DNA from: Haladaptatus caseinilyticus
GTDB taxonomy: Archaea; Halobacteriota; Halobacteria; Halobacteriales; Haladaptataceae
DNA length: 64,000 nt
Assembly (NCBI RefSeq): GCF_026248685.1
Contig: NZ_CP111036.1
Location: 1,984,001 to 2,048,000, forward strand
Direction of reading: 5' to 3'
The position numbers and the translations under genes are program-made. Each line of letters begins with the position of its first letter. Position 1 is the first letter of the stretch. This document shows, piece by piece, positions 35,118-38,791 of this stretch. The notes beneath the pieces were generated by a model, which made no database searches, was not told the DNA's origin, and saw nothing but the letters and a program-made list of their open reading frames with translations.

Positions 35118-36257
35118 TTACTCCACGATTTCCTCTTCGAACGACGTTCCACTCACGTAGGACGCGACGCGCACGCCGAGGAGGCTGACGAAGACGCCAA
35201 GCAGAACGTACACGGCGAGTCGTGTTCCGGGGTCCAGCGTGAACTGGGAAACGGTCGTCTGACCGACTGTAATCTTCGGAACGGCGACAGGGGCGATTTT
35301 TCCGTCTCGTTGGAGGAAGTAGGCCGAAAACCCACGAACGACAAGTCCGACAGCGAGGACGCCGAACGGAAGATTTAGGTGAGAATTTCGAACGCGGTCG
35401 TTCCGGATTGCTTCGTCCAGCAGTCGGCCCATGCTCGCAGTGAGGGCGGCGACTGCGATCCACGGAACGCTCTCGAACGTGAACGCCATGGCCGTCATGA
35501 GGATTCCTTCGGAGGACTCCAACGGGGCGGCACGGAGCGCGCCGACGAAGACGCCGATGAGCGACAATCCGAGGCCGACGACGTAGGTGACGATGGAGAC
35601 GCGACCGGAGTACAACGCGTCGCGCGCCTCGGCGGGTAACTCACGGAAGTAGTCGCCGATCGCGAGCCCTTTGTACAGGACGAACAGGCCGATAACCGCG
35701 GTGATGGCGGAGGTCGCCATGGCGAGCCCCCACTGTAACAGTAACACCGGAAACGCGATGAGGGCGATACCGGTCGGGACGAGCACGGTCTGTCGAAGCT
35801 CCTCGTCCGCGAGGAACTGCTTCAGGAGGTAGTACGTGGATTCGATGTCGCGGGCCTGTCGGACGACGACACGGTCCACCGCATCGACGCGGACGCGGCT
35901 TTCGACGATGGGGACGAGCCGCTCGTCTTCCGCGCTGTCGATGACGATGATCGCCGAGTCGGCCTCGTGTTCGGCGACGAGTTCGTCCATCTGCGCGGCT
36001 ACGGCACGGTCCGCACCGACTCGCGTTTCGGCGGTGCCGGAGATGACTGCAACCGTCGTCTCCTCGTCGCTATCGCGGAGGTCACGGGCGACGCGGAGGG
36101 CTTCGAGTAGGCAGTTGACACTCGAATCCTCGGGGTCGGCGAGTCCGACATCGGTGACGAGTGACCGAACTGCTTCCCACCCGGCGACGGGCATCTTCAG
36201 TCCGGTCTTCCGGCCGATATCGTTGTTTCTATCGACACACACCACGAGCGTGCTCAT
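35118..36257 (-). CDS. DUF373 family membrane protein
   Basis: ATG 36257 (MSTLVVCVDRNNDIGRKTG) gives 379 residues. The N-terminal 140 residues form a soluble alpha/beta domain (ATRVARDLRDSDEETTVAVISGT, DSAIIVIDSAEDERLVPIVESR). The rest has about six to seven membrane helices ending in a basic-acidic tail. The family is archaeal, widespread and uncharacterised. A TATA-like stretch (minus strand near 36285-36292, TTTTTATC) lies about 30 nt upstream. It is divergent from the repeat-cupredoxin lipoprotein gene across 149 bp. Confidence 0.85.
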   Translation of the reverse strand: MSTLVVCVDRNNDIGRKTGLKMPVAGWEAVRSLVTDVGLADPEDSSVNCLLEALRVARDLRDSDEETTVAVISGTAETRVGADRAVAAQMDELVAEHEADSAIIVIDSAEDERLVPIVESRVRVDAVDRVVVRQARDIESTYYLLKQFLADEELRQTVLVPTGIALIAFPVLLLQWGLAMATSAITAVIGLFVLYKGLAIGDYFRELPAEARDALYSGRVSIVTYVVGLGLSLIGVFVGALRAAPLESSEGILMTAMAFTFESVPWIAVAALTASMGRLLDEAIRNDRVRNSHLNLPFGVLAVGLVVRGFSAYFLQRDGKIAPVAVPKITVGQTTVSQFTLDPGTRLAVYVLLGVFVSLLGVRVASYVSGTSFEEEIVE

Positions 36258-36373
36258 TCGGTATCTCATCCCAGACGGGCAGGGGATAAAAAGGTCTTCT
36301 TTATGCCAACTAGTTGTCGTTCGGAGCCGTGTGTGCCGTTCCCCATATTTTTGGACCGCCTAAAAATCGGAAC

Positions 36374-36382: not shown

Positions 36383-36400
36383 GTTTAGGTATGCCTAAAC
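36383..36400. promoter_or_regulatory. DtxR/IdeR-like operator palindrome
   Basis: GTTTAGG-TATG-CCTAAAC is a perfect 7+7 inverted repeat. The inner part (TTAGGTATGCCTAA) resembles the DtxR iron-box core TTAGGTTAGCCTAA. It starts 3 nt after the candidate TATA box and ends 6 nt before the start codon, so a bound repressor would cover the transcription start. Confidence 0.6.
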
Positions 36401-36406
36401 CGATAT

Positions 36407-38791
36407 ATGCAAACCGACAGGCGGACCCTGTTAAAAATCGGTGGTGCGGCCGCTACGAGTTCTCTCCTTGCTGGATGTGGGGCCTTTACCGGCGAACTGA
36501 ACGCGAAAGACGTAACCGCGGAGGCGGCAATCGCCGCCGAGTGGAACGCCATGCGCGCACGACTACACGACGCCTTTGCGCTCGGCGTCGCGGGCGAGTT
36601 CGAAGCCGGTGTCTCCGTCGCCGAGAACATCTTTACACGGTTCGAGAAGTCGAGCGGCGAATGGGGTGCACACGAAAAACTCGAACACACGAGCGAAACG
36701 CAGTACGAGGAGTTCGAGGAAGCACTCGGGCAGTTGAAGACCGCTCTCGAAGACGAGAACATGGACGAGGTGAAAACCGAACTCAACCTCGGTAACGAGC
36801 ACCTTCGAAAGGCCCAAATCGGGCTGGTTGGTGAAGCGAACGTTCACGCGCTCGATTTACAACTACTCGGCGCTCGGTTCGAGGATAGCGCGATGCTGGC
36901 CGATGCTGCGACGTTCAAATCGGCCCGAACCGTCGCTGAACGAGCGCTCTCGGCGTTCGAGGACGGCACAGTTCACGACGAACTCGAATCGGCGAGTTCG
37001 GAGACGTACGAGTCGTTCGAGAGCGCGGCCAAGACGACGGTCTCCGCGGCGAAGAAAGAAAGGAAAAGCGTAGTCCGAAAGCAATCGAACGCGGCCGTGA
37101 AAGCCGCCGTTTCGGGGTCGTACGAACTGGGAACCGAGAACGCTGCCGGCGCGGGGCACATCGCGGTCATGCAGGGACAAGGCTTCGACGCCAAAGCCCT
37201 TGCATCGCTCGGCGGCCCCTCGAAATCGTTCGCGCACGCCGCGAGCCTGAACACGTATCGTGCCCGAGCTACGGACTGCAAGTGGCTCGCCGAACAGGGT
37301 GCGACCGGCTACGCAAAGCGCATGGCGAAAGACATCTTCGCCCATTTCGAGGGCGCAAAAGCGCACGAAGCGCTGGAACACGCGAATCACGACGCCTACG
37401 AGAAGTTCGAACACGGACTCGAAGAACTCGCCGCCGCCGCTGGAAAGGGGAACTCCAAAGCCGTCGAACAGGCGGTCAGTGAAATCGACAGCAGTCTTCG
37501 AACCGGAATCGCGGCGCTCACGACCGAAACGGAAGCCGCCATCCTTCAGTCGGGCTTCCTCCGTGCACGATTCGGCGACGCGCTCGAACTCCATACGATG
37601 GGTAAATCGGAGGCCGCCGCAACGATCTCCCAATCGATCTTCGAACGCTTCGAGAAGGACGAACTCGGTCTCCACGAGACGCTCGAACACACGAGCGAGA
37701 AACTTTACGAGCGGTTCGAACACAAGCACTTGAAGGAGGGTCTCATTCCTGCGTTGAAAGGCAACGGGTCGAACACGAGTACCCACTTCGAAGGCTCCAT
37801 GCAAGCCCTTCTCGACTTCGAGACGAAGGCCGGAAACGCGACGCTCGTCGCTGGCGCGGAGGCCACGTTCATGGCCAGTCGTGGATTCGATGCCGCAGGC
37901 GTTGCGAAACTCGGTAACGGAAGTCGCTCGAACGCTATCGTCGAGGCGACGTTCGAACACTTCGAAAACGGTGCAGGGGGATATCACGAAGCACTGGAGC
38001 ACGCCGACCACGACCGCTACGAGTCGTTCGAAAAGGCATTCGGGGGCATCAAAAGCGCCAACGAGACCTATGCGAAGGCGAAACAATTCGGCAACGAGGC
38101 CGTTCAGTCCGTCTACGCGATCGTTGGAACCGCGGGCGGCGACTTCACGGGCGCGGCGGCGACGATCGTTCAGGATGCCTTCCAACAGTTCGAGACGGCC
38201 GAGGTTCACGACCTGCTCGAAAACGGTGACCACGCCGCCTACGAAGCGTTCGAGAACGAAGTGAAGGAGTACGCGAGCGCCCTGAAGTCCGGTGAAGGGA
38301 TCGACGCCGCGAGTGAGGCGTTCGCCGCTGCCGCGCTTCGTGCACAGTTCGCGGTCGTCGGCGAAGTCGGCAACGCCCCCGTCGGAACGCAGTCAGGCGG
38401 GGAGGAAAACGGCGAGACGAAACTGGCGGGGGGTCCAAACGTGAAACAGGGCGTCCCCGAAGACGCGGACCACGTCGTCGAGATGAAGGCCGTCTCGTTC
38501 AGTCCCTCCGAGCTGACTATCAAGAAAGGTGACACTGTCGCATGGAAACACGTCGGCGGCGAGGCTCACACGGTCACTGCCACCGAGAAATCGCTCCCGA
38601 ACGGTGCGAGTTACTGGGCGTCCGGCGGATTCGAATCCGAATCGAAAGCGACGGCGGGATGGAAGAACGGTACCGGTGCGGTTCAGTCCGGGCAATCGTT
38701 CGTCCACACCTTCGAGACGGCGGGAACGTTCGAGTACCACTGCATACCTCATGAGGCGGCGGGCATGACCGGAACTATCGTCGTCGAGTAG
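36407..38791 (+). CDS. Tat lipoprotein with six His/Glu helical repeats and C-terminal cupredoxin (DUF5059-like)
   Basis: The 794-residue protein starts with a Tat lipoprotein signal (DRRTLLKIGG, lipobox LLAGC with Cys24), so it is anchored outside the cell. Residues 40-655 carry six repeats whose core is FE-x(4-9)-HExLEH...YExFE; the HE cores are at 89-94, 190-195, 320-325, 423-428, 527-532 and 601-606. Residues 688-794 form a halocyanin-like cupredoxin with copper ligands H721, C779, H782, M787 (C-x2-H-x4-M). The repeats match my memory of DUF5059. An iron-box-like palindrome precedes the gene. A role in metal capture or redox at the cell surface is inference. Confidence 0.85.
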   Translation: MQTDRRTLLKIGGAAATSSLLAGCGAFTGELNAKDVTAEAAIAAEWNAMRARLHDAFALGVAGEFEAGVSVAENIFTRFEKSSGEWGAHEKLEHTSETQYEEFEEALGQLKTALEDENMDEVKTELNLGNEHLRKAQIGLVGEANVHALDLQLLGARFEDSAMLADAATFKSARTVAERALSAFEDGTVHDELESASSETYESFESAAKTTVSAAKKERKSVVRKQSNAAVKAAVSGSYELGTENAAGAGHIAVMQGQGFDAKALASLGGPSKSFAHAASLNTYRARATDCKWLAEQGATGYAKRMAKDIFAHFEGAKAHEALEHANHDAYEKFEHGLEELAAAAGKGNSKAVEQAVSEIDSSLRTGIAALTTETEAAILQSGFLRARFGDALELHTMGKSEAAATISQSIFERFEKDELGLHETLEHTSEKLYERFEHKHLKEGLIPALKGNGSNTSTHFEGSMQALLDFETKAGNATLVAGAEATFMASRGFDAAGVAKLGNGSRSNAIVEATFEHFENGAGGYHEALEHADHDRYESFEKAFGGIKSANETYAKAKQFGNEAVQSVYAIVGTAGGDFTGAAATIVQDAFQQFETAEVHDLLENGDHAAYEAFENEVKEYASALKSGEGIDAASEAFAAAALRAQFAVVGEVGNAPVGTQSGGEENGETKLAGGPNVKQGVPEDADHVVEMKAVSFSPSELTIKKGDTVAWKHVGGEAHTVTATEKSLPNGASYWASGGFESESKATAGWKNGTGAVQSGQSFVHTFETAGTFEYHCIPHEAAGMTGTIVVE

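Follow-up and report, generated by a model that had tools for sequence, protein, structure and literature searches.

A DUF5059-cupredoxin lipoprotein of haloarchaea under iron-box control as a candidate iron-binding surface protein

The locus described here raises the question of what a haloarchaeal lipoprotein with a long, repetitive helical region and a terminal copper domain does for the cell. The open reading frame, identified by sequence and profile search, occupies 36407..38791 on the forward strand of the window (the whole 64,000-nucleotide stretch of Haladaptatus caseinilyticus contig NZ_CP111036.1 that was analysed) and encodes 794 amino acids. The original prediction had pictured a surface lipoprotein carrying repeated helical motifs that resemble metal sites, an outline that the present analysis supports. 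Judged from the sequence, the N-terminus (36407..36478, forward strand) is a Tat-type lipoprotein signal: the predicted lipobox is there as LAGC with the lipidated Cys24, it is preceded by a twin arginine at residues 5-6, and R5, R6 and C24 are all invariant in the alignment of homologues (alignment A1). Between this signal and the C-terminal plastocyanin-like domain lies a helical region of ~620 residues. PF16502 (DUF5059) matches it at full length (757.9 bits against a gathering threshold of 25, E 1.4e-227; model positions 1-619 on residues 41-658), so the helical part belongs to a known but uncharacterised family. The protein is already in the databases as Pfam DUF5059, a name that occurs in the literature surveyed in annotation tables and lists only. 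The gene stands alone: over 40 loci there was no conserved operon partner or transporter neighbour, local clusters excepted. Its divergent neighbour in the window (35118-36269, reverse strand) encodes a DUF373 membrane protein and starts ~80 bp from the distal operator.

The proximal operator (36383..36400), GTTTAGG-TATG-CCTAAAC, is a DtxR/iron-box-like palindrome recognised from the sequence and from homologous promoters; its 16-bp core (36384-36399) is a perfect TTTAGGNNNNCCTAAA and ends 7 bp before the ATG. The distal operator of the pair (36349..36364), TTTTGGACCGCCTAAA, has one mismatch to TTTAGGNNNNCCTAAA and lies 35 bp upstream of the proximal one. By chance, 0.01 matches of such a palindrome would be expected in the window. 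All 66 distinct homologous promoters carry the proximal TTTAGGNNNNCCTAAA, either exact or with a single mismatch, 2-7 bp upstream of the start codon (shuffles gave 0). In 59 of the 66 there is also a distal copy, which has no more than two mismatches and usually stands 35-36 bp away from its proximal partner. The iron-box-like operator assumed in the original prediction is therefore real. One genome (G207) encodes two full-length copies of the family (L075 and L076), each with its own operator pair.

The same exact palindrome occurs at nine sites in this genome. Two precede a class-III aminotransferase gene, the first of the region that contains both IucA/IucC genes, another three stand before genes for two Peripla_BP_2 lipoproteins (the binding-protein type for Fe-siderophores) and one FecCD permease, and one is that of the DUF5059-cupredoxin gene. 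The other three (G000:C1:1896899, 2425238 and 2466383; L083, L085 and L086) stand before genes without a known iron role, which encode a 157-residue unknown protein, a DUF7552 protein and an RGP-like (reversibly glycosylated polypeptide) protein. Across ten genomes, nine related ones included, the exact palindrome was found 4-16 times per genome compared to 0-1 for a reversed-pattern control, and in three of the nine (G326, G172 and G059) a comparison of coordinates places palindromes inside or beside IucA/IucC clusters. Several Fe_dep_repress (PF01325) proteins are encoded in this genome.

Published expression data point the same way. HVO_1228 of Haloferax, annotated as a halocyanin (hcpE), shares the PF16502 family, the architecture and the operator, and we see no essential difference between it and the present protein. 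When endA is knocked down in Haloferax volcanii, HVO_1228 rises by 4.2 log2 together with iucA, iucB, iucD and two iron-binding proteins (PMC7714728). In a cas1 fen1 mutant it falls by 2.92 log2, and iucA, bdb and dat fall with it (PMC9051519). The main text of a paper on the iron-starvation proteome of this species (PMC11349517) does not name it. Because the palindrome is common to siderophore and Fe-ABC genes and HVO_1228 is co-expressed with the siderophore operon, we hold with high confidence, from sequence and published expression tables together, that the DUF5059-cupredoxin gene is a member of the iron regulon. This is the firmest of our functional conclusions.

What, then, would an iron-regulated surface protein do with its repeats? 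The six motif starts predicted at first, H89, H190, H320, H423, H527 and H601, proved exact, and the pattern FE-x(4-14)-H-x3-E-x6-Y-x3-E has one copy in each of the six repeats, with 4-9 residues between FE and H in these copies, compared to a mean of 0.001 matches (maximum 1) in 2000 composition shuffles of the protein. In copies 2 and 6, HD takes the place of HE. The last His of HExLEH, which had been taken as part of the core, turned out to be mostly particular to this protein, since His at positions 94, 325, 428 and 532 is found in only 5, 3, 20 and 14 of 63 full-length homologues, respectively. The core kept across the DUF5059 family in these homologues is instead a pentad: the Glu of FE, a His, a Glu at +4, a Tyr at +11 and a Glu at +15.

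The repeats align as units of ~80-107 residues, and all lie on the forward strand. Motif and homologue alignment define them, with AlphaFold2 models in addition for repeat 1 (single unit) and for repeats 3 and 4 (tandem). Complete pentads are present in repeat 1 (aa 38-144, 36518..36838; E80 H89 E93 Y100 E104), repeat 3 (aa 280-377, 37244..37537; E315 H320 E324 Y331 E335), repeat 4 (aa 378-477, 37538..37837; E416 H423 E427 Y434 E438, with invariant H441 and H460 besides), repeat 5 (aa 478-575, 37838..38131; E520 H527 E531 Y538 E542) and repeat 6 (aa 576-655, 38132..38371; E596 H601 E605 Y612 E616), the last of which has a short first helix. Repeat 2 (aa 145-246, 36839..37144) is degenerate in the family, its H190 being kept in 33 of 63 homologues, and it is followed by a linker with the remnant of a helical unit, recognised in the homologue alignment (aa 247-279, 37145..37243; invariant D261 and H277). 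Within the pentads of repeats 1, 3, 4, 5 and 6, 24 of 25 positions are invariant in the 63 full-length homologues, compared to 30 of 113 for all H/E/Y columns of the DUF5059 domain (hypergeometric p 6e-18 for the pentad enrichment). When 41 units taken from nine proteins are aligned, full invariance is confined to the motif columns F, E, H, E, Y, E.

The plastocyanin-like cupredoxin (aa 685-794; 38459..38788, forward strand), defined by profile and homologue alignment, matches PF00127 with 57.1 bits against a cut-off of 21.2, and all 63 of the 63 full-length homologues keep its type 1 copper ligands H721, C779, H782 and M787, which bears out the C-terminal type I copper site proposed earlier. 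The protein resembles the halocyanins (TIGR03102) in being haloarchaeal, lipid-anchored and equipped with a type 1 copper domain, but this domain makes up only ~110 of 794 residues and the halocyanin model scores 35.1, well below its cut-off of 93.8. Natural forms of ~500 residues contain only repeats 1, 2 and 6 and the cupredoxin. In five of eight such three-repeat forms (L054, L068, L069, L071 and L052) the axial Met is replaced by His or Gln, a change that should shift the redox potential of the copper. Short forms (L052, L054, L063, L068, L069 and L071) lie near a gene that, from a look at its sequence, appears to be Thi4-like; Thi4 is a thiazole synthase and is often iron-dependent.

One could imagine an iron-sparing electron carrier, that is, a respiratory copper carrier made under iron shortage, in which the bundles would be no more than an acidic stalk spacing the cupredoxin. 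The complete type 1 site, the view of halocyanins as haloarchaeal one-electron carriers (PMC8305020), iron control that suits iron sparing, and a repeat number that varies down to three in the ~500-residue forms, as that of a stalk might, are all consistent with this scenario. A stalk, however, would not require five units to keep their E/H/E/Y/E set unchanged, and none of the genes of the five other cupredoxin matches in the genome lies near an iron-box palindrome; we therefore consider a pure stalk-carrier rather unlikely.

With an input alignment made of the protein's own repeats only, AlphaFold2 folds repeat 1 as an up-down four-helix bundle with the third helix broken after HxxxE (pLDDT 85.8, pTM 0.74), and repeats 3-4 modelled in tandem also form four-helix bundles (pLDDT 90.9, pTM 0.82). 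In family-averaged helical wheels, the Glu of helix B and the His, Glu, Tyr and Glu of helix C line up along a single stripe at 58-118 degrees to the hydrophobic face, an arrangement that would fit a shared polar groove; if the helix were straight, however, the last Glu of the pentad would be far from the His. The predicted fold is of the same general type, four-helix bundles, as that of imelysin and EfeM. No match to the PDB reached E 0.001, and neither ferritin nor imelysin is among the matches listed for the single-unit search. The single unit has PsbQ, SMBP and cytochrome c' as neighbours, and the tandem has vinculin/alpha-catenin bundles, with EfeO and EfeM lower in the list. The best single-unit match, PsbQ/CyanoQ (Z 14.0, rmsd 1.9, 98 residues), has a Z typical of unrelated helical bundles and no evident function in common with the protein. 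As all the matches are in the background range for helical bundles, the fold is ordinary and uninformative on function.

Such a stripe might also be a metal-free network of internal hydrogen bonds and salt bridges by which each bundle stays stable at high salt. The conserved Arg and Asp residues of the first helix (R50, R52, D55, D290 and D391) could pair with the Glu and Tyr residues of the third, and in repeat 2 the His gives way to Tyr with the Glu residues retained (EYEYE) in 19 of 63 homologues, as a structural role would allow. Yet the pentad of repeat 6 is intact although its RxRxxD helix is missing, the H, E, Y and E of repeat 2 have been lost together in several homologues (EYAAV, ERAAV), as would be expected of a joint site, and a His that never varies in any of five units is more than structure alone would require. 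A purely structural network hence seems to us quite improbable.

If the groove does bind a metal, it need not be iron. The DtxR family includes Mn sensors, and with several PF01325 proteins encoded in the genome the operator might answer to Mn or another metal, while the cupredoxin itself is of a kind that binds copper; the sites would then serve copper or manganese handling. The small metal-binding protein SMBP (PF16785, PDB 3u8v), which is multi-metal, is likewise a single four-helix bundle and superimposes with VIA Z 10.5 and rmsd 2.2 over 81 residues. Its profile weakly matches three of 41 units (best E 0.00087), but the fold match is within the helical-bundle background, and SMBP has neither a cupredoxin nor a tandem array. 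Against another metal stand the other operator sites of the genome, which mark siderophore and Fe-siderophore ABC genes, and the co-expression with the siderophore operon reported in PMC7714728 and PMC9051519, and we regard this alternative as very unlikely. Least probable of all is a haem scavenger with the bundle His (together with Tyr) as ligand, for although iron-starvation control, the conserved His and Tyr and a weak resemblance of unit profile and model to the cytochrome b562 and cytochrome c' bundles would suit it, three invariant Glu per unit are better suited to a metal ion, CxxCH is absent and the b562/c' matches are helical-bundle background.

The original prediction had also compared the protein with EfeO. 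M75 imelysin consists of two four-helix bundles, and EfeO/EfeM likewise are iron-regulated, extracytoplasmic proteins that combine a cupredoxin with helical bundles bearing conserved His and Glu (PMC3143127, PMC9174327); in the present protein, unlike these, the domain order is reversed, the units are six, and the copper site is a classical type 1 site. What stands of the comparison is the joining of a cupredoxin to helical bundles under iron-box control; kinship with EfeO/M75 is not supported, the profile comparisons being null. With E allowed up to 10, PF09375 (M75) is not among the matches listed for the protein, a comparison with E. coli EfeO by hhalign returned probabilities of 0.2% and 0.1%, and no M75 protein was found in this genome. 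In the fold search the tandem model meets EfeO (7wgu_B) at rank 22 (E 1.2, prob 0.60) and EfeM (7q1g) at rank 36 (E 2.1), both a long way from significance. The motif differs too, GxHxxE in M75 compared to HxxxE plus a further YxxxE in the DUF5059 protein, and ferritin-like di-iron bundles use paired E/ExxH motifs rather than E...HxxxE...YxxxE. The FTR1 permease was found neither in this genome nor in the class sample (0 of 391 Halobacteria genomes), with positive controls detected. With no M75 profile, profile-profile similarity or FTR1, and with a different motif and a reversed order, we find membership in EfeO/M75 and EfeUOB unsupported.

DUF5059 exceeds its cut-off in 99 of 391 Halobacteria genomes, and a search with the unit profile through 393 genomes of the phylum gave no convincing member beyond Halobacteria. 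The one non-haloarchaeal unit match considered (L097, E 4e-5) was set aside, as it proved to be a membrane protein's soluble helical tail, which lacks the His/Glu set; this membrane protein (L097:5392-6270) lies near a multihaem-like (CxxCH) protein. A viral collection held no DUF5059 relatives, and one profile scan of genome contigs returned unrelated cupredoxins only. IucA/IucC is present in 38 of the 99 DUF5059 genomes compared to 73 of the 292 others (odds ratio 1.87, p 0.014, kinship ignored); as this co-occurrence is weak, the DUF5059 protein is not a strict siderophore partner.

At the level of sequence, then, we regard architecture, conservation, operator and co-regulation as established. 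Iron control, the surface anchor, five invariant pentads and a redox copper centre together lead us to favour surface iron capture with a one-electron step. That the protein is an iron-starvation surface protein whose repeated carboxylate/His sites bind iron beside a redox copper domain we hold with evenly divided confidence. Against it count the position of the last Glu relative to the His on a straight helix, a common bundle fold with no significant match to a metal protein, the lack of a conserved transporter neighbour, the weak co-occurrence with IucA/IucC and the silence of the iron-starvation proteome paper's main text on HVO_1228. The scenario would run as follows. In iron-replete cells a repressor, presumably of the DtxR family (Idr/SirR/TroR type), would occupy both palindromes of the promoter, and iron loss would free the gene along with those for siderophores and Fe-ABC import. 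The protein would be exported by Tat and anchored by lipid at Cys24, with its chain of four-helix bundles projecting outward. The five bundles with the invariant Glu/His/Glu/Tyr/Glu set would then probably bind iron, and the type 1 copper domain would probably pass one electron to or from the bundle iron, the direction being perhaps oxidation, by the logic of Fet3 and EfeO, or perhaps reduction of Fe3+. Siderophores or the Fe-ABC binding proteins might in this way receive surface-captured iron in a redox state that can be used.

In Hfx. volcanii, siderophore-independent importers of Fe3+ and Fe2+ have been inferred from growth, with no genes assigned (PMC7407949), and the DUF5059-cupredoxin protein could fill this role. 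More tentatively, and as something that we consider possible rather than likely, the protein may be a separate haloarchaeal device for surface redox iron capture, with up to six iron-loading bundles that a single type 1 copper centre would charge or discharge, and with delivery of the iron to ABC importers without FTR1, possibly the Haloferax siderophore-independent uptake itself.

This study adds to the knowledge of DUF5059 its repeat structure, its conserved pentads and its regulon, although the gene may already figure in published archaeal DtxR/Idr regulons. A hitherto uncharacterised family, present in about one quarter of the sampled haloarchaeal genomes, is tied by a promoter element to the iron-starvation regulon, and the pentad residues are identified targets for mutation. 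Haloarchaea live in iron-scarce habitats, and part of their iron uptake is not assigned to any protein; the DUF5059-cupredoxin lipoprotein is probably a component of their iron acquisition that has so far gone unrecognised. If its sites do hold iron, it would be a multi-site counterpart of the logic of bacterial EfeO and yeast Fet3, built from different parts.
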